The position numbers and the translations under genes are program-made. Positions 2,965 to 35,216 of a DNA stretch of 35,470 nt are shown piece by piece; positions within the stretch are counted from its first letter, which is position 1; each line of letters starts with the position of its first letter. Under the pieces are notes generated by a model that worked only from the letters and a program-made list of their open reading frames with translations, did not search any database and was not told where the DNA came from. The stretch is taken from the NCBI GenBank assembly GCA_003559575.1, contig PWKZ01000147.1, positions 1 through 35,470 of the forward strand. Reading direction: 5' to 3'. Source of the stretch: Bradymonadales bacterium (GTDB taxonomy: Bacteria > Myxococcota_A > UBA9042 > PWKZ01).

Positions 2965-3225
2965 ATGGGATGCTGCAACAAAGAACTCACCGGCCGGCCC
3001 ATCGGGCGACTCCGCTATCTGGCGGGAGCCGGTGTCATTATCGCCGTCCACGGCGGAGTCTTCGCGCTTTTGAGCGCCGGGGCCTATCTCTCGCCGCGCT
3101 GCCGGCGAGTGTTGCCCTTCTATCGGGCCTATACGCGCGCCACAATCTCAGGCATCCTCAAGCGCGAGCGCATTCTCTTGGCCGGAGAGCGGGCCCCCAA
3201 CCCGGACTGTGAGCTTCCCAAGTGA
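2965..3225 (+). CDS. Small single-pass membrane protein (86 aa)
   Basis: The ORF starts MGCCNKELTG, has one hydrophobic segment (about residues 18-40), then an Arg-rich region and a C-terminal tail. It resembles no family I know. Reality is supported by context: it begins 15 bases after the PP-loop gene, has an AAGGGA stretch about ten bases before its ATG, and its TGA overlaps the next gene's GTG by four bases (GTGA), suggesting translational coupling. The paired cysteines at positions 3 and 4 could bind metal or be acylated; that is speculation. Confidence 0.7.
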   Translation: MGCCNKELTGRPIGRLRYLAGAGVIIAVHGGVFALLSAGAYLSPRCRRVLPFYRAYTRATISGILKRERILLAGERAPNPDCELPK

Positions 3226-4451
3226 CCGATCCGGCGCTCCACCCGGAGCTTTTGCGAATCAGAGCCGATTTCCCGGCGCTCGCCGCCAGGCCACGAGGCA
3301 AGCCGGTGATCTATTTCGACAACGCCTGTACGACACTGCGACCCGAGTCGGTGGCCGCCGCGATAGCCGATCAGGTGCGCACCGGCGCCGCTTGCCACGG
3401 TCGCTCCTACCACCGCCTCGGGCGCGCCGCGACCGACACTCTGGCCCGGGCGCGGCACGCCGTTTTGCGCCTGATCGGGGCCGAGCGGCCGGAGGAGGTC
3501 ATCTTCGTCCGCAGCGCGACGGAGGGGCTCAACATGGTGGCGCGTTCGCTCGGGTTGGGGCCCGGCGACGTGGTTCTGACCACCGACCAGGAGCACAACG
3601 CCAACCTCATCCCCTGGCAGCGGTTGACCCGCAGCCATCGCATTCGCCACGAGATCATGCCGCTTGGCTCCGGCTTCGACATGGCCGAGTTCCGGCGGCG
3701 GCTTCGCCGGGGGGTCCGGCTCGTCAGCGTATTTCACACCTCGAACTTGACCGGGGCGACCCTGCCGGTGGCCGAGATCTGTCACGAGGCGCGTCGTCAC
3801 AAATCGCTCGTCCTCATCGATGGGGCGCAGAGCGTCATGACCCACGAGATTGATCTGGCCTCCATGGGGGCCGACTTCTTTGTTTTCTCGCTGCACAAGA
3901 TGATGGGGCCGACGGGGCTCGGGGTGTTGTGGGGCCGCGCCGCGCTCCTCGAGCGCCTGGAGCCGCTCATCGTGGGGGGCGACACCGTGACGGATGCGAC
4001 CTACGGCGACTGCACCTTCGCGCCGCTGCCCGCGCGGTTGGAGGCCGGTGTGGCCAACCTCGACGCCGCCGCGGGGGTTGAGGCGGCCGTCGATTACCTG
4101 TTGCAGCTCGAGCGGCGACACATTCACAGCCATGTGGTAGCGCTCAACGAGATCGCCACCGAGGGGTTGCGGCGCATCCCTCGTGTCCGCGTGCTCGGCC
4201 CCCCGGCGCCGGCCGAGCGCGGCGCGATCGTCAACTTCACGATGGACGGTGTCGGCAGCCACAGCCTGGCGCGTCTCCTGGACGAGCGCGCCGGCGTGAT
4301 GGTTCGGCACGGCAAACACTGTGGGCACGCGTGGTACAATGCTCTCGGGGTGGAGGAGTCGGTGCGGGCCTCCTTCGCGGTTTACAACACCGAAGCCGAG
4401 GTGGAGGTCTTGCTGGAGACCGTCGCCAAGGTCGACGGCATGTTGGAGTAA
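3222..4451 (+). CDS. Class V aminotransferase, SufS/CsdA-type cysteine desulfurase
   Basis: The protein has the fold-type I PLP layout of group II cysteine desulfurases: YFDNACTT near residue 31, His125 in DQEHNAN stacking on PLP, Asp200 in LVLIDGAQ, and the Schiff-base lysine K226 in FSLHKMMGPTG. The RHGKHCGHAW motif supplies C367, at the position of the persulfide cysteine of SufS. Length (409 aa) is typical. It would turn cysteine into alanine and a protein-bound persulfide. No sufBCD genes are nearby, so it is probably dedicated to its operon, handing sulfur to the PP-loop protein two genes upstream. GTG 3222 overlaps the previous stop by four bases. Some family members act on other substrates (for example selenocysteine or isopenicillin N epimerase-like), so the exact reaction is inferred. 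Confidence 0.88.
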   Translation: MTDPALHPELLRIRADFPALAARPRGKPVIYFDNACTTLRPESVAAAIADQVRTGAACHGRSYHRLGRAATDTLARARHAVLRLIGAERPEEVIFVRSATEGLNMVARSLGLGPGDVVLTTDQEHNANLIPWQRLTRSHRIRHEIMPLGSGFDMAEFRRRLRRGVRLVSVFHTSNLTGATLPVAEICHEARRHKSLVLIDGAQSVMTHEIDLASMGADFFVFSLHKMMGPTGLGVLWGRAALLERLEPLIVGGDTVTDATYGDCTFAPLPARLEAGVANLDAAAGVEAAVDYLLQLERRHIHSHVVALNEIATEGLRRIPRVRVLGPPAPAERGAIVNFTMDGVGSHSLARLLDERAGVMVRHGKHCGHAWYNALGVEESVRASFAVYNTEAEVEVLLETVAKVDGMLE

Positions 4452-4454
4452 CGT

Positions 4455-5897
4455 TTGCGGCTCGTGCTCGTCAATCCGAGCTTTCAGACCCGGGTGCGGC
4501 GTATCGCCCAGACCAGCGTCGGGCCACCGCTCGGGTTGGCCTATCTGGCCGCCGCGGTGCGCGCCAAAGGCTTCGAGGTGCGCGTCGTCGACGCCAACGT
4601 CTTTGGTCTGAGCGAAGCGCGCGCGGCCGCCGCGGCGTTTGACTTGCAACCTGACGTGGTCGGCATCACGGCGGCGACCCCGACCATCGCCCGCGCGGGC
4701 GAGATAGCCGGCCACCTGAAAGCTCTCGACCCCGGTATCACCACGATCGTCGGCGGACCCCACGCCACCGCCTTGCCCGCGCGCACGCTGGCCGAGTTTC
4801 CCGCCGTCGACATCGTCGCGCGGGGGGAGGCCGAGGGCTCCCTGCCCGCGCTCCTCGCGGCCCTCGACCGGGGCGCTTCGCGGCGGGCGCTCACCGACGT
4901 GCCGGGGTTCGTTCTTCGCGAAGAAGGCGGGAGCGTCGTGGACACCGGGGCCGCGGCGCGGCTCGACTGTCTCGACCGCCTCCCCTTGCCGGCCCGCGAT
5001 CTGTTGCCGATGCGGCGCTATCGGACCGTCGATTCGGACCGCTTCACCACAATGCTGGCGATGCGCGGCTGCCCTTGTAGTTGCGTCTACTGTTACGTCC
5101 CCGAGCTGTTCGGCCGCCGGATGCGGTATCGCTCTCCGGCGGCGGTGGTGGCCGAGATGGACGAGGTCCACGCGCGTCATGGGGTCACGCTGGTCTCGTT
5201 CGTCGACGACACCTTCACGACTCGCCGCGAGTGGGTCGAGGAGTTCAGCGATCATGCGCAAACCTCGGGAGTGGCGCGCCGGGTTCGCTGGACCTGCCTG
5301 ACGCGGGCCGACATGGTGGATCGCGCGCTCCTCGCGGCCATGCGCCGCGCGGGCTGCTTGCGCATCGAGTTCGGGATCGAGAGCGCCTCCGCCGCCGGCG
5401 TCGCGTTTCTCGACAAGGGGCAGAGCGAGGAGAAGGTGTTGGCCGCGTTTCGTGATGCCCGCGCGGTGGGACTCTCGACAATGGGGTTCCTGATCCTGAA
5501 CATCCCGGGTGAGACCGAGGCCGACATCGTGAGTTCGTTCGAGCTCGCCCGCCGTGCCGATCCCGACTTCCTCCAGGTCTCCTTTCTGACCCCCTACCCC
5601 GGCACGGCGTTGCGCGCCGAGGCGGAGCGGCGCGGCTGGATCACCACCGACGACTGGTCGCGTTATCTGTTCTTGCGCGACATCGTCCTCGATCACGGCG
5701 GGCTGCCGCCGGCGAAGCTCGAGCGAATCTATTCGCAGCAGATGCGCCGCTTCTATCTGCGACCGCGGACGGCAATCAAATTTGGTCGTTTGGTATTGGG
5801 TGGGCGCAGCGAGCTGCGCCCGCTCATGCGCACCGTCATGTTGGGGCTGGCGGGGCTCTTGGCGGGGCAGAGCGAGGGCGATAGGAGGGAGCCATGA
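4455..5897 (+). CDS. B12-binding-domain radical SAM enzyme
   Basis: The N-terminal 130 residues are a cobalamin-binding Rossmann domain of the kind fused to class B radical SAM enzymes (PPLGLAYLAAAVRAKG, then DVVGITA, VGGPHATALP and ARGEAEGSLP). The radical SAM core follows with C206, C210 and C213 in CPCSCVYC (CxxxCxxC), which would bind [4Fe-4S] and SAM. FVDDTF and EFGIESAS are typical later strands. Family members methylate unreactive carbons or rearrange carbon skeletons. TTG 4455 is the only start before the first conserved strand, and it follows the desulfurase stop by three bases. The operon position argues for a tailoring step in the same pathway. The substrate cannot be told from the sequence. 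Confidence 0.88.
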   Translation: MRLVLVNPSFQTRVRRIAQTSVGPPLGLAYLAAAVRAKGFEVRVVDANVFGLSEARAAAAAFDLQPDVVGITAATPTIARAGEIAGHLKALDPGITTIVGGPHATALPARTLAEFPAVDIVARGEAEGSLPALLAALDRGASRRALTDVPGFVLREEGGSVVDTGAAARLDCLDRLPLPARDLLPMRRYRTVDSDRFTTMLAMRGCPCSCVYCYVPELFGRRMRYRSPAAVVAEMDEVHARHGVTLVSFVDDTFTTRREWVEEFSDHAQTSGVARRVRWTCLTRADMVDRALLAAMRRAGCLRIEFGIESASAAGVAFLDKGQSEEKVLAAFRDARAVGLSTMGFLILNIPGETEADIVSSFELARRADPDFLQVSFLTPYPGTALRAEAERRGWITTDDWSRYLFLRDIVLDHGGLPPAKLERIYSQQMRRFYLRPRTAIKFGRLVLGGRSELRPLMRTVMLGLAGLLAGQSEGDRREP

Positions 5898-13405: not shown

Positions 13406-13980
13406 TGGGCTAGCTTGGCGAGCAACCAGGCCATGTTTTCCCCCAGCGTGCGCATTGTCGCGAGGCCCTCCTCGTCATGGGCCACTTCACCGGCGGCTCC
13501 TCCCATGCCGAGGTTCCAGTAAGAGGAGCCGACAATCACCATCTGGCCGATGGTGAAGAAGTGGTTGAGTGTATCGAGGGCGTGCACCGCGCCGGCACGC
13601 CGGACCGCCACCACGGCGGCACCCGCCTTGCGCCGCAAGAGGTCGCCGTTTGCGCGCGAGACGAGCCCGGTGCGGTCGATGAGCGCTTTGATCTCCGCGC
13701 TCACGTCGGCGAAGTAGGTGGGCGAGGCGAGTACGATGCCGTCCGAGGCGACCATCTTGGCCAGGATCTCGTTGACGAAGTCGTTATCCGGCCCGTGGCA
13801 AGCGCCGTCCTGCTTGTGCTTGCACTTGAAGCAGGCGGTACAGCCGCGGATGGCGCGCCCGGCGAGCTGGTAAAGCTCGGTCTCGACCCCGCGGGAGTCG
13901 AGCTCGGCCAGCAATGTCGCGAGCAAGAAATTGGTGTTGCCGTTGGCCCGGGGGCTGCCGTTTATCGCCGTCACCTTCAT
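13402..13980 (-). CDS. Iron-sulfur flavoprotein (Isf/NADPH-dependent FMN reductase family)
   Basis: The flavodoxin-like fold begins with INGSPRANGNTN (FMN phosphate loop), and ASPTYFADVSAEIKALIDR is the second flavin-binding segment. C47, C50, C53 and C61 have spacing Cx2Cx2Cx7C, the compact motif that binds [4Fe-4S] in archaeal-type iron-sulfur flavoproteins. It probably moves electrons between a ferredoxin and an oxidant or partner enzyme. ATG 13980 is preferred over GTG 13986 because GAGAGGTGAAC gives a well-spaced Shine-Dalgarno. It sits 24 bases after the radical SAM gene and overlaps maf, so it may supply electrons to that radical SAM enzyme. Confidence 0.88.
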   Translation of the reverse strand: MKVTAINGSPRANGNTNFLLATLLAELDSRGVETELYQLAGRAIRGCTACFKCKHKQDGACHGPDNDFVNEILAKMVASDGIVLASPTYFADVSAEIKALIDRTGLVSRANGDLLRRKAGAAVVAVRRAGAVHALDTLNHFFTIGQMVIVGSSYWNLGMGGAAGEVAHDEEGLATMRTLGENMAWLLAKLAQ

Positions 13981-14004
13981 GTTCACCTCTCCACTCTGTC
14001 TCGT

Positions 14005-15027
14005 TCATCGTATGACCGGCGGGACCGGCACGAACTCCTCGTCGCCGAAGTGCTCGGGGTACTCGCGCCACGGTCCTTCGCAGACCGGATCGAAGCGGCA
14101 CCGGGCGCAGCCCTCAAACTTGCACTTCTGCTCGCTGCGCGCGCGGCGCCAGTCGCGGGTCTCCATGTCCAACTGTTTGTGAACCGCCCGGCCCTGCAGC
14201 GGCTTGCATGCGTATTCGGCCACATGGTGTTCAAACCCGCCCATCAGACACAGCGGCACCGCCTCGTAAAACAGGGTCGCTTGCTGACCATAGCGCGTGA
14301 GCGCGCGGTGGGCATCCGGCAGAATGTCACGGTAGCGGGGCACCACCTCGTCAAAACGTTCCCGCGCGGTCCCAAGGGCGTGGGGAAAGGCGACGTTGAT
14401 GGTGTCGACTCCGAGCGACAACAGGAGGCCGATTGTGGCCGTTTGGGCGTCGGCGTTATAGCGCGACAGCACCATCTTGCCGATCACCCGTTGCTCGAGC
14501 GCGCGCAGGTTGCGAATGCCGGCCACCGTCTGCTCGAACGAGCCCGGAGTTTCGGTCACCCGGTCGTGGATTTGGGCCGTGGGGCCGTGTAAAGCGACCG
14601 CATAGACGGCACGAATTGGGGCCAGCCGCTCGGCCAGCGGCCGGTGGGCCAGCATGCGGCCGTTGGTCTGAATATGGAGCCGGAACCCCAGATCTCGGGC
14701 GCGCTCCAAGATGACGGGAAGATCCTTGCGGATGGTGGGCTCGCCGCCGGTCACGACGACGTCGGAGTAGCCGCGGTGGTGGGCGTCGGCCAGCTCACGC
14801 AGCACCTCGGCGGTGCCGCGATCCGAGTCGCCGCGAATCCGCCGCGCGTGATCGCGCTGGTCGGTTATCACGCAATGCACGCAGTGGTTGTTGCAGGTGT
14901 ACCCAAGCTTGATGTCGGCCTTACCCGCCAATCGCACCTCCCACCAAGCATCTTCAGCCAAGCGCCGTCGGAACGTCAATCCCCGGCGCGGTTCGCTCAC
15001 ATACAGCTGACCGCGGGCGGCCGGCAA
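14005..15027 (-). CDS. Radical SAM protein with SPASM-like C-terminus
   Basis: C45, C49 and C52 in CNNHCVHC bind the SAM cluster. VVTGGEPT, HIQTNGR and ALHGPTAQIHDRVT followed by TPGSF complete the core. The C-terminal 60 residues hold CKPL, CKFEGCARC and DPVCEGPW, consistent with auxiliary Fe-S clusters of SPASM/twitch type. These enzymes often modify peptides or mature proteins. No precursor peptide is obvious next to it. The recorded start is TTG 15027, which has no clear Shine-Dalgarno; GTG 15000 would also keep the core, so the start is uncertain. It is first in an operon with an iron-sulfur flavoprotein and a Maf protein. Confidence 0.87.
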   Translation of the reverse strand: MPAARGQLYVSEPRRGLTFRRRLAEDAWWEVRLAGKADIKLGYTCNNHCVHCVITDQRDHARRIRGDSDRGTAEVLRELADAHHRGYSDVVVTGGEPTIRKDLPVILERARDLGFRLHIQTNGRMLAHRPLAERLAPIRAVYAVALHGPTAQIHDRVTETPGSFEQTVAGIRNLRALEQRVIGKMVLSRYNADAQTATIGLLLSLGVDTINVAFPHALGTARERFDEVVPRYRDILPDAHRALTRYGQQATLFYEAVPLCLMGGFEHHVAEYACKPLQGRAVHKQLDMETRDWRRARSEQKCKFEGCARCRFDPVCEGPWREYPEHFGDEEFVPVPPVIR

Positions 15028-23665: not shown

Positions 23666-25069
23666 CTAACTTCCAATCAAGACCAACGTGAGCGCCACAA
23701 GCAGCCAGGCGCCGCGGTTGGCCCACGGCAACCAGGCGCCGCTGCGACGGCCGCGGATCCATAGATAGAGGAGCGAAGCCAGCAGCCCCGCGCCGACTCC
23801 GATCATCAAGAGCAGCAGCACACCGACCGGTTGGGCGGTCTTGATCCCATAACCGGCGGCCACGCTGATCGTGATCGGGAGCTGGTGGGTCAACGCGATG
23901 AGCACGCGCGCCGTGGTGAGCGCCGCCGCCGGGGGCCTGAAAAGGGCGTCGCAGCCCGGGGGAGACAACTCCCGGCCGGTCAGGCGGTAGATCGGAGTCA
24001 GCACCACGGCGACGGCAAGCAAGAGCAGCATCGCGTTCCAGGCCAAGAGCGCATCAAGGGGCAGTGTGGTGGCGAGGTTGAACCAGAAGAGGGCGCCGCT
24101 CGCCAGCACTGTAAACATCAAATCCAAGCGGTGGCGGCGACGCAAATTGAGCAGCATGGCAAGATAGAGCCCCCGCAGCGGTGGGCTGAAAAGGCGCGCC
24201 GGCGATTGCGCGTAGACTCTCACAGGCAGTGGCCCTTCGCGCCACGGCGGCAGCATCTCAGCCTCGCGGAAGCGCGCCCGAATGGCGCGCCAACTCCTCT
24301 TGAACAGCGCGGCCGAGTGCAGCACGAAGCCTGCGATGGCAGTAAAGACCAGGAGCGTACCCACCAACGCCGGCCCCGCTTGGCCGCTCGAAGAGAGCAG
24401 TGGTCGAAAGGCCTGCGCGAGCAGAATGGCGGCGCTCAGGCCGACTGCGAACACCGCCGCCGGCGAGTAGAGCATCAGCGCCGCCGAGTCGACTCGCATC
24501 CCGGCGCCGAAGAACTCTTTGATGAGTGAGGTGCCACGCAGCAGGCTCACTCCGGCCAAGGTGTGCAACCACAGCCCTGCCGCCGGCGTCAGCAGCCATA
24601 CAAGTGAGTCGATGGCGAACTCGACCGCCAACGCGCGCGGCGCCACCTCAATGAGTGGCGCCTGGAGCAGCGCGAGCGCCGCGAGGAGCGGCAGGTGGGC
24701 GAGATAGAGTGCCCCCAGACGGTCGATGAAGAGGCTCCGGGAGTCGAAGGGCAGCGCGGCGAGGTTGGTGGCGCCGCGGGCGCGGTAGAGCACTTCGAAG
24801 CTGCCGGCCCCAATGAGGAAGCACATCGCGGCGCGCAGCAGATAGCCGCGCTCGGCCAGCGCTTCGGCCAGCGCCTCCGGGGGCAAGTCGGCCGGCGGCA
24901 GAGTCGTTTGGCCCAGCATGAACAGCGCCGCCCCAAGGCCCCCGAGCCCGGGCACGAGTAGCCAGGGCAACAGGCCGCGGCCTGCGACCCGGAGGCGGTT
25001 CTTGCGTTCAAGGGCACGCAGCCGAACAATTACCCGCCACATACCTCGTCGCTCGCCATCGCCGCGCAT
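23666..25069 (-). CDS. ABC-2-like permease (467 aa)
   Basis: About ten hydrophobic segments are spread over the whole length, the first at about residues 34-54. There is no family motif I can name, but direct coupling to an ABC ATPase (stop and start one base apart) marks it as the membrane partner. ATG 25069 has GGGGAGGT eight bases upstream, clearly better than the inner ATG at 25042. Polytopic membrane protein is certain; direction and substrate of transport are not. Confidence 0.82.
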   Translation of the reverse strand: MRGDGERRGMWRVIVRLRALERKNRLRVAGRGLLPWLLVPGLGGLGAALFMLGQTTLPPADLPPEALAEALAERGYLLRAAMCFLIGAGSFEVLYRARGATNLAALPFDSRSLFIDRLGALYLAHLPLLAALALLQAPLIEVAPRALAVEFAIDSLVWLLTPAAGLWLHTLAGVSLLRGTSLIKEFFGAGMRVDSAALMLYSPAAVFAVGLSAAILLAQAFRPLLSSSGQAGPALVGTLLVFTAIAGFVLHSAALFKRSWRAIRARFREAEMLPPWREGPLPVRVYAQSPARLFSPPLRGLYLAMLLNLRRRHRLDLMFTVLASGALFWFNLATTLPLDALLAWNAMLLLLAVAVVLTPIYRLTGRELSPPGCDALFRPPAAALTTARVLIALTHQLPITISVAAGYGIKTAQPVGVLLLLMIGVGAGLLASLLYLWIRGRRSGAWLPWANRGAWLLVALTLVLIGS

Positions 25070-25206
25070 TCAACCGCACCTCCCCACCAGACCAAACCAA
25101 ACAAACCAAAGAGGAGACCTTGACCCTTGATTGGCCATTGGTCAAGCTTCGCTGGTGCGGGTCTCGCGCACCCATCACCCGCAGAGCGCGCGCCTGGAGA
25201 TCGCCG

Positions 25207-26805
25207 ATGCAGTTCGACAAACGTTTGGAGCCCACACCGGCCACCGCGGCCCACTGGGAGCGCGTCGGTATGCAGCGCCGGCATGGGGTGCTGGCGCCGC
25301 TCTTTTCCCTCAGAAGCGAGACCAGTGTCGGGATCGGCGATGTGGCGGACTTGGAGAGGCTTGTCGACTGGTGCGTCGAGATCGGCGCGACGGTGGTGCA
25401 GCTCCTCCCGTTGTTCGATCTTGGCCCCGACTCCGCGCCGTACGGAGCGATCTCGGCGTTTGCAAACGATCCGGTCTACATCGCCCTCGACAGGGTCCCT
25501 GCGGTGCGCGCGAGCCGAGAACTCAAGGCCGAACTCGCCGCCGCGCGGAGCGCGCTCGAAGGCGCCGCACGGATCCCGTACCCGCAGGTCCGCGCGGCCA
25601 AGATGGCCATTTTGGAAGCGGCCTTTGAACTCGATCGCGAGCGTTTGGCCGAGGCGCCCGATTATCAGGCCTATGTGACCGAACAAGCTCACTGGCTCGA
25701 CGATTATGCGCTCTTTCGGACGCTTCGCGAACACCACCACTGGCGGTCGTGGGAGGACTGGGGGGCGGGCTTCGAGAGCCCCTCCGCCCGCCGCGCGTTT
25801 AGTTCCAAGCACGCCGCCAGGCTGGACTTTCATCGCTACCACCAGTGGCTCCTGGACGGCCAGCTCATGGCGGCAAGAGACTACGCCGCACAACGCGGTG
25901 TGCTGCTCAAGGGGGATATCCCGATCCTGGTGGGGCGCGACAGCGCCGACGTGTGGTGTCGGCCGCAGCTCTTTCGGTTGGACACCGAGGCGGGCGCGCC
26001 GCCCGACTACTATTCGCGCGACGGACAAGTTTGGGGGTTCCCCACCTACGATTGGGGAGCGCTTTGGGAGGATGACTGTCGCTTCTGGCGGTGGCGCTTG
26101 GCCCACGCCGAGCGCTTTTTTGATCTCTATCGCGTCGACCATGTGGTGGGCCTCTTTCGGATCTGGACCGTGCCCCGCGGCGCGCGCCACGGGCGCGACG
26201 GAATGTTCGTACCTAGCGATGAGGAGCGCTGGGGAGATCACGGGCAGCGCATCCTGACCATGATGTTGGAGGCGTCCACGATGTTGCCGTTGGCCGAGGA
26301 TCTTGGAACGATCCCCGACGTTTGTCGCGCGACTCTGCGTGAGCTCGGGATTTGCGGCACCAAGGTGGTGCGCTGGGAGCGCCGTTGGCATGGTGACGGC
26401 GGCTTCATCCCCCCGAGCGAGTTTCACCCACTGTCGTTGACCACGCTCTCGACCCACGACACCGAGACCCTGCGGGGTTGGTGGAAGCACCATCCCGATG
26501 ATCGGCAGCTATTTTGGGAGTCCCTCGGCGGCACGGGACGGGCGCCGGAAGTGATGTCGCGAGAGATCCAGCTCGAGTGCCTCGCGCAAACGGCACAGGG
26601 GGGCTCGTTGTTCGTGATTCATCTGTTGCAAGATCTGCTGTCGCCCTTTGGGCTGCTCTGCGCCGACCCCGACGATGACAGAATCAACGTGCCCGGGACG
26701 GTCGGCTCTCACAACTGGACCTGGAGGTTGCCTTTCGGCCTGGAGCGACTGATCGCCGACGACCCCTTGAACTCGCGGCTCGAGCGCGTCCTCCGCCGGC
26801 ACTGA
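25207..26805 (+). CDS. malQ: 4-alpha-glucanotransferase
   Basis: This GH77 enzyme moves maltodextrin segments between glucans. The family motifs run in order: HGVLAPLFSLRSETSVGIGD, SAPYGAISAFANDPVYI, KGDIPILVGRDSADVW, GAPPDYYSRDGQVWGFPTYDW, DLYRVDHVVGLFR (nucleophile Asp), LPLAEDLGTIPD (acid/base Glu) and LSTHDTETLRGWW (third Asp). Length (532 aa) fits. ATG 25207 has TGGAG seven bases upstream; a TTG at 25120 also follows a GAGGAG box but adds 29 residues unlike the family. Genes for glycogen or maltose use are absent from the window, so its pathway partners must be elsewhere. It ends six bases from the convergent gene. Confidence 0.93.
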   Translation: MQFDKRLEPTPATAAHWERVGMQRRHGVLAPLFSLRSETSVGIGDVADLERLVDWCVEIGATVVQLLPLFDLGPDSAPYGAISAFANDPVYIALDRVPAVRASRELKAELAAARSALEGAARIPYPQVRAAKMAILEAAFELDRERLAEAPDYQAYVTEQAHWLDDYALFRTLREHHHWRSWEDWGAGFESPSARRAFSSKHAARLDFHRYHQWLLDGQLMAARDYAAQRGVLLKGDIPILVGRDSADVWCRPQLFRLDTEAGAPPDYYSRDGQVWGFPTYDWGALWEDDCRFWRWRLAHAERFFDLYRVDHVVGLFRIWTVPRGARHGRDGMFVPSDEERWGDHGQRILTMMLEASTMLPLAEDLGTIPDVCRATLRELGICGTKVVRWERRWHGDGGFIPPSEFHPLSLTTLSTHDTETLRGWWKHHPDDRQLFWESLGGTGRAPEVMSREIQLECLAQTAQGGSLFVIHLLQDLLSPFGLLCADPDDDRINVPGTVGSHNWTWRLPFGLERLIADDPLNSRLERVLRRH

Positions 26806-26811
26806 GCGGTC

Positions 26812-27912
26812 TCAGCGGAGACAGACCACCTGGTGGAGTGCCCGGCCCGTGCCGGCACGTTGTCCACCTTCAACGCCGAGGCGCAGCTCGTAACGGTTTT
26901 GGAAGCGGAGGAAGACCGGGTTGCCCATGATTCGGCCGACCAGCCTCCGCAGCGCCCAGCCCAGCTGCTCGAGGACAATATAGGCATCATGCGGCGCCTC
27001 TGTTTCCATACGAATCTCGACCGCCGGCACGTCGCCGCCGCCGCCGCGAAGACGCAGCACCTCGGGCCAGCGGCAGCCCTCCGGGCCCTCCGTCCGGTCC
27101 CGGAAAGTCAACTGGGGGGAGCGCGAAGCCAGCCGGATCCCTGAGCGGTCGCTCACCACCAGGTAGCTGAGCTGGTCGTGCAAGTGGGCATGGCTCGCGA
27201 GCGGATACCCGGCCATGAAGTGGACGGTCAGATCGTCGGCAAAGAGGTTCATCACGTAGACACGGCGTGCCCAGAGGGTAATCGCGCGGTTGGACGCCAT
27301 CAGCTCGAGATAGCCCGCCCCCGCGAGTTCATGGCGCTCATCGCCGTTAGAAAGCGTTCCTTTGATGTCGGCCCGCGGCACGAGGAAGAAGTACTTCATG
27401 AAGTGGCCCGCTTCCGGATCGACCTCGATGCGGCCGTCACCGAACTTGTACCCCGGTAGCCACGGTGTGAGGGTGACGTCCAGCTCGAGGCCGTCCAGGG
27501 TCGCCTGGAGGCGGTGGGTGTCGCCGCCGAAAGTGAGCTTCTGCTCGTCGGCGATTGAGATCTCACCCGTCCCGTCACTGGGCTCGTAGTGCTCACTGAA
27601 CCGCGTGGCGGGATATTGTCGCTTGAGCCGAGTTACCGTGCCGTCCGGGGCCGTCACCGAGATCGCGACCCCGGTGTTGCCGCCTCCACCGAGCCCCATA
27701 TTGGTGCGAAGCAAGCTCACATAGATGATGAAGCCTGTGTCGTCCTGCAGGACAGCGGTCCAGAAGACGGTATGCTGTTGCGCCTCTCCCGGCTGCCAAT
27801 ACCAATCTTCAGGCGCAAGTGGGCCGGGATGCTCGCGCGCCGCCAGACGGGAGGTCGGCGCGATTATCACCAACAGCGTCGCGGCACAAAGCGACAAAGC
27901 GATTTTGAGCAT
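26812..27912 (-). CDS. Secreted lipocalin-like (Svf1/CrtC-AttH-type) protein
   Basis: A signal peptide covers about residues 1-27 (MLKIALSLCAATLLVIIAPT). The mature part is beta-rich with DDTGFIIYVSLLRTN, ISVTAPDGTV, LDGLELDVTLTPW, AGAGYLELM, ITLWARRVYVMN, which together recall the two-lobed lipocalin-like fold of Svf1 and CrtC/AttH proteins. Those bind or modify lipids and terpenoids. The family call is by eye and tentative. ATG 27912 is preferred over GTG 27927 because TCGAGGCAACTT gives a spaced Shine-Dalgarno and a cleaner signal peptide. Confidence 0.7.
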   Translation of the reverse strand: MLKIALSLCAATLLVIIAPTSRLAAREHPGPLAPEDWYWQPGEAQQHTVFWTAVLQDDTGFIIYVSLLRTNMGLGGGGNTGVAISVTAPDGTVTRLKRQYPATRFSEHYEPSDGTGEISIADEQKLTFGGDTHRLQATLDGLELDVTLTPWLPGYKFGDGRIEVDPEAGHFMKYFFLVPRADIKGTLSNGDERHELAGAGYLELMASNRAITLWARRVYVMNLFADDLTVHFMAGYPLASHAHLHDQLSYLVVSDRSGIRLASRSPQLTFRDRTEGPEGCRWPEVLRLRGGGGDVPAVEIRMETEAPHDAYIVLEQLGWALRRLVGRIMGNPVFLRFQNRYELRLGVEGGQRAGTGRALHQVVCLR

Positions 27913-27984
27913 AAGTTGCCTCGACACCCTAGGTGATCGGTCTGAAGCGGTCGTTGCCGCTTACCCGACGCTCGAGAAGAGGCG

Positions 27985-28090: not shown

Positions 28091-28116
28091 CCTCTCGGAC
28101 CGAGAGGAGGTTTTTT
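28091..28116 (+). promoter_or_regulatory. Terminator-like hairpin plus T6 overlapping a Shine-Dalgarno
   Basis: CCTCTCG (28091-28097) pairs with CGAGAGG (28101-28107) around GAC, then AGG and six T. The 3' arm shares GAGG with the Shine-Dalgarno GAGGAGG (28104-28110) and the GTG start follows the T run at once. It could act as an attenuator or as a ribosome-site lock for the next gene. Confidence 0.5.
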
Positions 28117-30150
28117 GTGAAAGTCGCACAGCACAGATTCTTCAAGACCGGTCAGGGCAGCGGCATGCCGCCGCGGGAGGCGCGCCTGTTGCGTTGCATG
28201 AAGGCTCTGGTTCGTCAGCTCTCGATTCCATTGTTGATCCTGGCGTTGGTGGGGTGCGACGACTCCGCCCCCGATGAGATCGACGGCGGTGGGCCGCTCG
28301 CGCCCCGCGAGGAGATGCGACCGACTCTCGCGAGTCGCGACGAGCTTCTGGCCGGCGCGCCCCACAAGGATTCACTAGTCACAATCGGCAAAGAGAAGAG
28401 CGATTACCCCACGAGATTCGACCTGGCCGACAGTCAATCGCCGGTGCGTAATCAAGGGCAACGCCCGCTCGGGGCGGTTTTTGCCGTCGTGGGGCTCATG
28501 GAGCACCTCTATCTCCTCGAGAACAGCCTCCCAGAGCCGAGCTTCTCGGCCCAGTTTCTGCAGTGGTCGACCAAGGTGGAGTTGGCGGCCTCTCCCGACA
28601 GCGAGGCCGCCAGCGCGGCGCTTGCCGTCGAGACCATCCACCGCCACGGTCTCGTGTTGGAAGAGTTTTGGCCCTATGTGCCCGCGCCGTGGGGCAGGGA
28701 CGAGGCCCCCGAGTGCTTCGCGGAGCCCGTCCCGCTCATCTGTCGCACCCTCGGCGAGCCCCCCGAGAGTGCGCTGCAGGCGCCACGTCACTCGCTCCCG
28801 CGGGGGCGCTTCATCAGCAGCACGCCACGGTCCATCAAGGCGTATATGCGAGATCGCGGTGCGGCCGTCGTCGCCACGATGGATTTCTTTTTTCAGGCCT
28901 GGAACCACGCCGACTCCGAGCTTCCCGTCAGCCGGATAAACTTCAGCGAAGGCTATGTGCCCTATCCAAATAACGCGGACATCGAGCGCAGCTCACGCCG
29001 CCGCGCCGGGCACTCGGTGCTGTTGGTCGGGTGGGACGATGAGCTGGAGGTGCCCGTTCGCGACGAGCGGGGGCGGCTGATGCGAGACCATGAGGGAGAG
29101 CTGATTACCGAGCGGGGGTTTTTCCTGTTCAAAAACTCTTGGGGGACCGAGGGGTTTGGGATCAGGAACGAGTTCGGGCCGGGCTACGGGTGGATCTCGC
29201 AGCGCTATCTCGAAGAGTTCGCGTTGATATTGACGGTCGAACAGCCGGTCTTCGAGGTGGTCGAAGACTGCCTTGACGGACTCGACAACACGGGTAACGG
29301 CTTGACCGACTGCGACGATCCTGATTGCTCCGAACACAGAGTCTGCCGCCGGCGCGGGAGCGTCGTCACGAGCCGGCGGGCGCGCGCCATCCCCGAGCTG
29401 GGGCCGATGGGCGAGACGACCGTCGATGTGCACGAGTCGGGGTATGTGGCCGACCTGTTTGTGACGATGAACATCCAGCACAGCGACATCAGTGATCTCG
29501 TGGTGTCGCTCGTGGCTCCGGGGGGCCAACGCGCGATGATCCACGACCGCGCCGGCAGGAGCGGCGACCCGTTTCCCGCCGTGCATCGCGTTGAAGGCCT
29601 GCGGGGCGTCCGCACCAAGGGCCCCTGGCAAATCGAGGTGGCCGACATGGCCCCGTGCGACAGCGGGAAGCTCACGCGCTGGTCGCTCGAGATCATCAAC
29701 GACGACAACTGGCTGTCGGAGTTATGCGACTACGAGGATCCCGACTGTGCGACACCCGACTGTGCCGAGCATCCACTTTGCCGCGGTGGGCGGCGGGTGC
29801 GGATGGAGTCCGACGGCGAGTCGCCATTCGGCGCCGACGATCCCGCGGCGCTCGTGAGCCGGTTGGAGTTCGATGAGATAGGATCGATTGCGAACCTCAG
29901 GATCGGGATCCATCTGACCCACCCCTACCGTGGCGACTTGAGGCTCTCGCTCATCGCTCCCACCGGCAACCCCCTCAATCTCTTCGAGCACGACGCTCAG
30001 TGCTATCCCAATGTCGTGGCCGAGTTCGATCTGCCCGAGTTCGCCGGTTTTCCTCTGGACGGCGCCTGGATGTTGCAGGTGGACAACCCCGGCAAGTTCG
30101 CCGCCGGAACCCTGCACTCCTGGTTCCTCGAGGCCACCCTCGAGCCCTAG
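28117..30150 (+). CDS. Papain-fold lipoprotein with catalytic Cys replaced, plus two P domains
   Basis: The N-terminus ends in the canonical lipobox LVGC (C47). Residues 100-370 have the C1A papain fold, but where active enzymes read NQGQCGSCWAF this one reads NQGQRPLGAVFA, so the nucleophile is Gly119. H299 (AGHSVLLVGW) and N340 (FKNSWGTEGFG) remain. A DGLDNTGNGLTDCDD cysteine repeat follows (about 388-402), typical of myxobacterial surface proteins, then two proprotein-convertase P domains (about 425-530 and 570-675) separated by a second Cys-rich segment. It is probably a surface-bound binding protein, not a protease. GTG 28117 has a strong GAGGAGG; an inner ATG at 28198 would give a shorter signal peptide but has no ribosome site. 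Confidence 0.85.
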   Translation: MKVAQHRFFKTGQGSGMPPREARLLRCMKALVRQLSIPLLILALVGCDDSAPDEIDGGGPLAPREEMRPTLASRDELLAGAPHKDSLVTIGKEKSDYPTRFDLADSQSPVRNQGQRPLGAVFAVVGLMEHLYLLENSLPEPSFSAQFLQWSTKVELAASPDSEAASAALAVETIHRHGLVLEEFWPYVPAPWGRDEAPECFAEPVPLICRTLGEPPESALQAPRHSLPRGRFISSTPRSIKAYMRDRGAAVVATMDFFFQAWNHADSELPVSRINFSEGYVPYPNNADIERSSRRRAGHSVLLVGWDDELEVPVRDERGRLMRDHEGELITERGFFLFKNSWGTEGFGIRNEFGPGYGWISQRYLEEFALILTVEQPVFEVVEDCLDGLDNTGNGLTDCDDPDCSEHRVCRRRGSVVTSRRARAIPELGPMGETTVDVHESGYVADLFVTMNIQHSDISDLVVSLVAPGGQRAMIHDRAGRSGDPFPAVHRVEGLRGVRTKGPWQIEVADMAPCDSGKLTRWSLEIINDDNWLSELCDYEDPDCATPDCAEHPLCRGGRRVRMESDGESPFGADDPAALVSRLEFDEIGSIANLRIGIHLTHPYRGDLRLSLIAPTGNPLNLFEHDAQCYPNVVAEFDLPEFAGFPLDGAWMLQVDNPGKFAAGTLHSWFLEATLEP

Positions 30151-30239: not shown

Positions 30240-31673
30240 TCAATTTTCGATTTCATGCTTCTTCATCAGCTTGCGAAAGTACTTGCGGTCGATTTCGGCC
30301 TCTTTGGCGGCGTGTGAGATGTTGCCTTGGTTGCGGCGCAGCAGGGTGAGGATGTAGTCGCGCTCAAAAGTCGAGACCCAGCCTTCCTTGGCGTTCTTGA
30401 ATGTCGCGCGGACGGCGAGATCGAGCTTCCCGGGCAGCGTGGGCGCCTCCTCGGTGGCGCGCGGCAATGGGGGCGGCGTGTCGACCAGATGGGCCGGCAA
30501 ATCCTCGGTCTGAATCGTCTCCTGCTCCGCAAACGAGCACGCGCGCTCGATGACGTTGGCTAGCTCACGCACGTTGCCGGGCCAGTGGTAGGTCAGCAAC
30601 AGATCGAGCGCCTCGCGACCCACTCCCTTGACCTTGGTTGCGCCTGCAGGGTCGCGGTTGAAGGGCATGGTGCGGAGGAAGTGTCTGGCCAGTAGCGGGA
30701 TGTCCTCGCGTCGCTCCCTGAGCGGAGGGACGCGAAGCCGCACCACCGAGAGGCGATAGAACAGATCTTCGCGGAACTCTCCTCGGAGGACCATCTCCTC
30801 GAGGTTGCGGTGGGTCGCCGCCAGCACCCGGACATCGACCCGCTCGGTGTGGTTGGCCCCCACCGGACGAATCTCGCCCTGCTCGAGAGCGCGCAGTAAC
30901 TTTGGTTGGAGCTCGATGGTCAGCTCGCCTATCTCGTCGAGAAAGATGGTGCCTCCGTCGGCCACCCGGAAGAGCCCCCGCCGGCCGGCGACGGCGCCGG
31001 TGAACGATCCCTTCTCGTGGCCGAACAACTCGCTCTCGATGAGCGCTTCGGGGACGGCGCCGCAGTCAACCACGACAAACGGCTGCCTGGCCCGTCGACT
31101 ACTCGAGTGAAGGCCGCGCGCCACCACCTCCTTGCCGGTGCCGGTCTCGCCCTCAATCACCACCGTCACGTCGGTGGCGGCGGTTTTCTCCAGGATGGCG
31201 AAGATCTCACGCATCCGCGGGCTCTTGCCGACGATCTCGCCAAACGACTCGCGCTCGCTCAGGGCCACCTCGACCCGCTCATCCAGGGATTGGAAATTGA
31301 GCACGCTGCGACCGAACGAGAGCATGCAGCCCGGCTTGAGATATGCCTCGATGACGCGGACACCGTTGACGAAAGTACCGTTGGTGCTGCCCAGATCGCG
31401 GATCCGGTAGTGGTCGCCGCAGAGCGTTATCTCGGCGTGGGAGCGCGACGCGCTGTCGTCTTGCAGCACCACGTCGTTGTCGCTCATGGCACCGATGCGG
31501 ATTGTAGGCTGATCGAAGACGTACTCGGTGGAAGAGCCGTTTTCATGCGCATGCAGGAGCGTGCATTTTCTAAGCCTCGTCACCGTGGGATGGGCTTCGA
31601 GCGTGCCAAATCCGGCCTTTGGCGTGAACTCGGGGGAGCGCTTGTCCAATTCGTACCTCAACCCTGAAACCAC
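30240..31673 (-). CDS. FHA-domain sigma54-dependent transcriptional activator
   Basis: An N-terminal FHA domain (IRIGAMSDNDVVL, RSHAEI, DLGSTNGTFVNG) should bind a phosphothreonine partner. The AAA+ domain follows with Walker A GETGTGKE, the sigma54-contact loop GSFTGA, Walker B GGTIFLDEIGEL and LRERREDIPLLARHF. A Fis-type helix-turn-helix (GNISHAAKEAEIDRKYFRKLMKKH) closes the protein. FHA-type activators of this order are frequent in myxobacteria, where Ser/Thr kinases control them. Length is 477 aa. GTG 31673 is the outermost start with only a weak GGGGAAG upstream; the real start could be 20-30 codons further in. The gene diverges from the CocE-like gene across a repeat. Confidence 0.93.
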   Translation of the reverse strand: MVSGLRYELDKRSPEFTPKAGFGTLEAHPTVTRLRKCTLLHAHENGSSTEYVFDQPTIRIGAMSDNDVVLQDDSASRSHAEITLCGDHYRIRDLGSTNGTFVNGVRVIEAYLKPGCMLSFGRSVLNFQSLDERVEVALSERESFGEIVGKSPRMREIFAILEKTAATDVTVVIEGETGTGKEVVARGLHSSSRRARQPFVVVDCGAVPEALIESELFGHEKGSFTGAVAGRRGLFRVADGGTIFLDEIGELTIELQPKLLRALEQGEIRPVGANHTERVDVRVLAATHRNLEEMVLRGEFREDLFYRLSVVRLRVPPLRERREDIPLLARHFLRTMPFNRDPAGATKVKGVGREALDLLLTYHWPGNVRELANVIERACSFAEQETIQTEDLPAHLVDTPPPLPRATEEAPTLPGKLDLAVRATFKNAKEGWVSTFERDYILTLLRRNQGNISHAAKEAEIDRKYFRKLMKKHEIEN

Positions 31674-34211: not shown

Positions 34212-34239
34212 TTGACCCCTGTGGCGGTTGGGCTATGCT
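34212..34239 (+). promoter_or_regulatory. Candidate sigma70-type promoter for the amidotransferase-like gene
   Basis: TTGACC (34212-34217) and TATGCT (34234-34239) are 16 bases apart and 42 bases upstream of the ATG at 34281. This is the best consensus match seen in the window. Confidence 0.5.
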
Positions 34240-34280
34240 CATGCCTTTCCGTGGAGGGGACAAAGAAGGGTTTTTGCGAG

Positions 34281-35216
34281 ATGTCGCTCTCGATTGCAAT
34301 GTTGGTCAATGACCGTTTGCTCCAGCCCTGTGTATGCCGCGAGGTTGGTGACGAGCTCGCGTCGCTGCGGCAATGCGCAGCTCAAGTGGACGCCCCGGAC
34401 GGACTAGATCCGGCGCCCTCGGAGCTGGACCTTGGAGTCGGGCACTATCACGAGGGTGAGGCGCTGTTGACCCGGCGCCCGCTGACAACCGGCGACCCGG
34501 CGAGGGAACCGCACGAAGATGCCTTTGGCGCGCTGTTTTGTGCCGGGCGCTCGACTTGCACTTTGGCCCACGCGATGCGTCGCTCAGCGCGAGCGTTTCA
34601 ACCGAACGAGGTGCAACCCTTCCGGTTTCGCGATTGGTTGTGGGTGATGTCCGGCGATCTCGAGGAGCGCCCGGACTTCGATCACCAATCGTTGGCCATC
34701 CCCCCGTATATTCGGGGCAACATGCGGACGTGGCGACCAGCCGAGGTCGCGTTTCACCTCTTCTTGGCTTTTCTGCATCGCACAGCGACTCTGGAGACAT
34801 TTCACTGGGATCGGATGGGTACGCGGCGGGCGCTCTCCTCGGCGATCTCAATCTTGGCCGCACGCTATGTGGCGGCCGGATCCGGCGCCTCCCCCAGCTA
34901 CTCGATCCTCACCACCAACGGCGAGATGCTCTTGGGGGTCGGGGTCGGACGCCAACTTTTCGTGCGGCGATTGGAGGGGCTCGCGGATTGTCGATTGTGC
35001 GGCGCGGGACGCCGGCCTGGAAGCGACGCGGCCGGAAGTGTCGCGCATGAGCACCTCAAAGCGATTCTGGTGGCCGATCCGGCGCCGGCCGCGCCCGACG
35101 AGAAAGTCTCTCTCTGGCGACCTCTGAAGCCGGGGAGGCTTTTAGAGATAGACGCCGGGCTGGGGATCGAAGAGGGCCCGCTGACTCCACACGGCCCCCC
35201 AGACGCACCGGGGTGA
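34281..35216 (+). CDS. Degenerate class II glutamine amidotransferase-like protein
   Basis: The pattern LGVGHYHEGEALLTRRPL, then TLAHAMRRSARAFQPNEVQPF and DWLWVMSGDLE, and later YSILTTNGEMLLGVGVGRQLFVRR, follows the YafJ/EgtC-type Ntn-hydrolase fold, where active enzymes have GWG, HvR, NTHPF and AHNG. The essential N-terminal Cys2 is Ser2 here (MSLSIAML), HvR is HAM and AHNG is VMSG. The protein is therefore either inactive or uses Ser as nucleophile. Length is 311 aa. ATG 34281 is preferred over the longer open frame because it lies 42 bases after a good promoter and starts the expected first strand; AGAAGG is upstream. The role is unknown. Confidence 0.7.
   Translation: MSLSIAMLVNDRLLQPCVCREVGDELASLRQCAAQVDAPDGLDPAPSELDLGVGHYHEGEALLTRRPLTTGDPAREPHEDAFGALFCAGRSTCTLAHAMRRSARAFQPNEVQPFRFRDWLWVMSGDLEERPDFDHQSLAIPPYIRGNMRTWRPAEVAFHLFLAFLHRTATLETFHWDRMGTRRALSSAISILAARYVAAGSGASPSYSILTTNGEMLLGVGVGRQLFVRRLEGLADCRLCGAGRRPGSDAAGSVAHEHLKAILVADPAPAAPDEKVSLWRPLKPGRLLEIDAGLGIEEGPLTPHGPPDAPG

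Follow-up and report, generated by a model that had tools for sequence, protein, structure and literature searches.

The window analysed here, a contig stretch of 35,470 nucleotides from a Bradymonadales bacterium, carries at 28117-30150 on its forward strand one unbroken open reading frame, which runs from a GTG at 28117 to a stop at 30150 and encodes a protein of 677 amino acids, hereafter the window protein. The features of this gene, in order along the forward strand, are listed below.

28103..28110, + strand: Shine-Dalgarno-like AGAGGAGG (AGGAGG), read from the sequence, ending 6 nt 5' of the GTG
28117..30150, + strand: open reading frame of the window protein, a putative C1-like pseudopeptidase lipoprotein with two P domains; full-length orthologues at loci L071, L072, L073 and L008
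28198..28257, + strand: predicted lipoprotein signal, residues 28-47 (MKALVRQLSIPLLILALVGC), with lipobox LVGC and Cys47, read from the sequence
28312..29241, + strand: C1 (papain-like) domain, residues 66-375 (profile A2, 547 bits over 310/310 positions; Pfam PF00112 sub-threshold)
28453..28455, + strand: Gln113, oxyanion-hole Gln, kept (117/117)
28465..28479, + strand: residues 117-121, PLGAV versus GVCSI in relatives, altered N-terminus of the catalytic helix (alignments)
28471..28473, + strand: codon GGG for Gly119, in the nucleophile column, where relatives have Cys encoded by TGT/TGC (116/116 of the other homologues that have a letter here)
28549..28551, + strand: Ala145, versus Glu in 116/116 relatives (SEQ motif, aligned with papain SEQ; profile and homologue alignments)
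28606..28626, + strand: residues 164-170, AASAALA versus GSxASxN in relatives, aligned with the papain NGG cleft segment (profile and homologue alignments)
29011..29013, + strand: His299, catalytic His, kept (116/116)
29134..29136, + strand: Asn340, catalytic Asn, kept (115/115)
29263..29346, + strand: acidic double-disulfide repeat 1 (acid_disulf_rpt, NF033662), residues 383-410 (NCBIfam match at 382-410, E 1.8e-8, below the curated cut-off)
29362..29706, + strand: P domain 1, residues ~416-530 (Pfam PF01483, best stretch 446-525; local profile)
29728..29784, + strand: second acidic Cys repeat, degenerate and shortened, residues ~538-556 (alignment A1, columns 591-615)
29803..30147, + strand: P domain 2, residues ~563-677 (second PF01483 stretch; local profile)

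The signal peptide, with a lipobox preceded by a hydrophobic stretch, predicts that the window protein is a bacterial lipoprotein, and the lipobox Cys47 is invariant in the five full-length members that were aligned (the window protein and its four orthologues). Because the hydrophobic stretch starts near Met28, the ATG at 28198 is a possible alternative start, and translation could begin either there or at the GTG at 28117. Membership of the C1 (papain-like) fold family is likewise predicted from sequence: a profile built from the C1 regions of five sequences, the window sequence among them, scores the window protein at 547 bits over 310/310 positions. The Pfam model Peptidase_C1 (PF00112) is matched by all 5 members of that profile, the window protein on its own scoring 17.9 bits, below the cut-off of 20.7. 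Pfam P_proprotein matches two stretches further downstream (E 3.5e-27), giving the domain order C1, acidic repeat, P domain, shortened second repeat, second P domain. The first-pass annotation had proposed two P domains and one Cys repeat; both P domains were recovered, while the acidic Cys repeats number two, the second being shorter than in sister proteins in the full-length alignment. No curated family in the libraries searched matched the whole C1-P-domain architecture. GC content at the three codon positions of the gene (0.66/0.47/0.82) is similar to that of neighbouring genes.

Upstream lies a 4-alpha-glucanotransferase (GH77) gene (25120-26805, + strand), overlapped on the opposite strand by a 487-aa ATG frame (25030-26493, - strand) that probably reflects high GC rather than a real gene. 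The frame at 26812-27927 (- strand) adjoins the C1 gene divergently and is one of several large frames in the window that had no Pfam match, the others being 34212-35216, 13477-14592, 3129-5696 and 123-2015. Downstream, a convergent gene (30240-31673, - strand) encodes an FHA domain fused to a sigma-54 activator with a Fis-type HTH. This gene neighbourhood is not conserved, as comparison with five orthologous regions revealed no shared neighbours.

Residues 112-123 of the window protein read NQGQRPLGAVFA, and the gap-free alignment with its orthologues places Gly119 in the nucleophile column. The family profile places this column opposite the Cys of both papain and Lpg2622, and later segments of the profile align with the His and Asn regions. 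The initial description of a papain-like lipoprotein with Gly as its nucleophile residue and with His299 and Asn340 intact was thus borne out in the homologue alignment. The motif from which the site was thought to derive, NQGQCGSCWAF, was not: the ancestral family motif is NQ(A/G)xRGVCSIF, i.e. NQ(x)2RGVCSIF, in which the papain-type motif's first Cys and its Trp are already absent. Relative to this ancestor the window protein carries G117P, V118L, C119G, S120A and I121V without a gap and reads R-P-L-G-A-V-F; the RGVC(S/T) motif is absent, with RPLGA in its place. Among the residues characteristic of an active C1 peptidase, the catalytic His and Asn and the oxyanion Gln are present, as is Trp342, and the catalytic Cys is missing. 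No Cys, Ser or Thr occurs at residues 114-126, and the C1 domain has two Cys only, at 200 and 209, both of which are family-conserved and present also in relatives with a normal catalytic Cys. No nearby Cys or Ser, then, takes the place of the nucleophile in the sequence, and such a loss without a neighbouring substitute marks the window protein as a putative pseudopeptidase. Two-sequence structure models of the C1 domain (window protein with L008, and the reverse) reached a pLDDT of 32 and a pTM of 0.25-0.27 and were unusable.

In the phylum, a search with the C1-domain profile hit 67 of 379 genomes, plus further genomes of one class, and the comparison set comprised 118 distinct domain sequences from the phylum (one domain being counted in two pieces). 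Over these 118 domains the nucleophile column holds Cys in 116 and Gly in the window protein alone, while one fragment does not cover the position. In the domains complete at all three catalytic columns, the triad is C-H-N in every other case (113/113) as against GHN in the window protein. With 116 Cys and Gly only here, the change is most simply one event on one branch, Cys being ancestral. The nucleophile loss is therefore lineage-specific and not a family trait, and the idea that Gly119 might be fixed among orthologues, for which an alignment had been proposed as a check, fails as a family-wide claim. Judging from their intact triads, the relatives are presumably active peptidases.

The C1-P-domain lipoprotein family occurs in about 18% of the sampled phylum genomes, with RGVC nearly invariant, and 67 of 71 homologues have one (35/71) or two (32/71) P domains. 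The window protein has the combination of lipobox, C1 domain and one or two P domains, the lipobox comparison covering five members. No relatives turned up when viral contigs were scanned. In its own genome, which is 92% complete, there is no second copy of the subfamily to which the window protein belongs. Two other C1 lipoproteins are encoded there (L114, G000:C228:17535-18176, and L115, G000:C211:10105-10719); they belong to different C1 subfamilies and have the motifs CGACWAF and RGTCAAF. Since both keep Cys, the organism retains apparently active C1 peptidases.

The NGG segment of papain lines the substrate cleft. The Gly164/Ser165 columns of the family align with this segment, and segment 164-170 would by this alignment line the cleft in the window protein too. 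The residues lost include likely substrate-cleft positions (E145A, G164A, S165A, N170A). Among the 83 columns conserved at 90% or more, 16 are changed in the window protein. These changes are clustered: 10 of 23 conserved columns are altered in residues 113-175 versus 6 of 60 elsewhere (Fisher p 0.0013), and the clustering persists when residues 117-121 are left out (p 0.026), although both p values are descriptive only because the regions were picked after the data had been seen. In the His/Asn lobe 2 of 36 conserved columns are changed. The window protein differs at 15% of columns that are at least 98% conserved versus 67-77% of variable columns, though much of this retained constraint could predate the nucleophile loss.

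The window domain has the longest terminal branch in a tree of 71 domains (1.15 versus a median of 0.24), in which it clusters with the two family f5 genomes (moderate support, 93/52). Its C1 branch is 4.3 times that of its sister, whereas the RpoB branch of the same genome is, in most comparisons, 0.61 times its sister's; it is thus the gene that has accelerated, not the organism as a whole. In the subset with two P domains, the ratios to the sister branch were 3.7 for C1, 4.2 for the first P domain and 1.3-1.8 for the second. Faster evolution of the P domains is compatible with general relaxation and equally with a new role.

We consider it probable that the window protein is a lineage-specific pseudopeptidase. 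Its ancestor would have been an envelope lipoprotein of the C1 peptidase family, in which relatives throughout the phylum have a complete catalytic triad. In one lineage the nucleophile changed from Cys to Gly, and the catalytic helix and putative substrate cleft were remodelled or eroded; the lobe with His and Asn is retained, as are the two Cys typical of the family, the lipid anchor and the two P domains. Because the nucleophile is missing, a thioacyl-enzyme presumably cannot form, and we infer that the protein has no C1 peptidase activity. Less certainly, the protein may have been kept for binding, without catalysis, at the surface or in the periplasm; its papain fold would then serve as a scaffold for a ligand or partner, and His299 and Asn340 would be retained mainly for the packing of their lobe. 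The first-pass annotation had likewise drawn a parallel with dead C1 proteins that bind ligands or partners; the absence of a nucleophile or nearby substitute agrees with the first half of that parallel, and a binding role is the most plausible reading of the second. A more ambitious version, in which the C1 scaffold was repurposed under directional selection as a receptor or peptide-capture protein, or uses its His/Asn pair without a nucleophile, appears improbable.

The main rival to a retained pseudopeptidase is a recently inactivated gene without remaining function, in which stop codons have not yet accumulated and conserved residues are eroding under relaxed selection. We regard this as rather unlikely but as a serious contender, in that the acceleration spans the whole gene, P domains included, that 16-18 conserved columns are changed versus a median of 2, and that the second Cys repeat is shortened. 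Decay of this kind sits less easily with a full-length frame that has a GC3 of 0.82, and with changes that are non-random, the His/Asn lobe being spared and the cleft region struck. In a rough neutral simulation, moreover, the frame remained open in just 0.7-2% of runs after ~19-27% of residues had changed. Long neutral decay is therefore disfavoured, but there is still room for a recent inactivation, given that some of the branch is older than the loss. Very improbable, in our view, is the proposal that His299 and Asn340 support a different reaction, for instance through activation of a water molecule or a substrate hydroxyl, or that a nucleophile located elsewhere replaces Cys119. Retention of Gln113, His299, Asn340 and Trp342 would suit such a function, and silicateins provide a C1 fold with an acquired activity, albeit one that has Ser in this position (PMC4671257). 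However, residues 114-126 offer no side chain with OH or SH, Cys200 and Cys209 are conserved in relatives bearing the normal Cys, and the likely substrate-cleft residues are gone along with the nucleophile, which leaves the different chemistry suggested for the pair at the outset without support.

More doubtful still is a diverged paralogue that works as a regulator or decoy beside an active copy in the same cell. Regulation of active homologues is a frequent role of pseudoenzymes (PMC4671257), and two or three family copies per genome are found in a few relatives (G146, G221, G237, G443), but the window protein's genome holds no second copy of its subfamily at its 92% completeness, and its other two C1 proteins fall in other subfamilies. 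The least probable account is an assembly or binning artefact, with Cys in the true gene. The Gly form is indeed known from one genome only, a draft assembly. A single-base error is nevertheless no explanation, because the altered codons differ from those of sister sequences at many bases and a check for slippage at the motif turned up no RGxC in any of the three frames; elsewhere in the gene, about a dozen other conserved positions are changed as well. Misbinning, for its part, is at odds with the grouping of the window protein with the two family f5 genomes and with the adjacent 4-alpha-glucanotransferase gene, which also has its best matches in family f5.

Among known systems, the closest to the putative pseudopeptidase are unnamed myxobacterial C1-P-domain lipoproteins, which match it over the full length at 37-45% identity. 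The four orthologues (L071, L072, L073 and L008) and about 110 more domains share the order lipobox, C1, acidic Cys repeat and P domains, but these relatives all have Cys in RGVC whereas the window protein has Gly and an altered cleft region. The best solved structure by profile E-value is Lpg2622 of Legionella (6a0n, E 1.7e-4), which aligns at the PV-Q...C, AGH...GYDDDLEV and RNSW segments, the latter two carrying His and Asn; it differs in having the catalytic Cys, and the matching profile stretches are short.

Glycine is also the residue that replaces the catalytic Cys in soybean P34. This papain-family protein (also Gly m Bd 30K), without the catalytic Cys, has been reported to lack enzymatic function (PMC2292165); likened here by description, it is a plant vacuolar seed protein and not a lipoprotein with P domains. 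Other papain-like proteins without the normal Cys include SERA5, shown to play a non-enzymatic role, and the silicateins, with another activity, both of which have Ser at the site (PMC4671257), as well as TINAG and TINAL, which are listed as inactive (PMC10318531). All of these resemble the window protein in lacking the Cys but are eukaryotic. Active-site loss has been listed as one of the forces that act on C1A peptidases (PMC10380794). Inactive C1 proteins are thus already known, and the window protein adds a bacterial case backed by a family of intact triads. Most bacterial pseudoproteases have been noticed merely as odd single sequences; here the loss falls on one branch of a well-sampled and otherwise triad-invariant family, which makes before and after directly comparable in protein, structure and fitness.

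The phylum-wide C1-P-domain lipoprotein family described alongside the window protein comprises loci L071, L072, L073, L008, L084-L113, L116-L154 and L179-L223. At L116 (G237:C45:26905-31410) three copies lie in tandem, all with Cys, one having RSVC instead of RGVC. At L223 (G432:C370:8956-9942) the C1 domain was matched in two pieces, suggesting an insertion, with the Cys and the His/Asn segments present.
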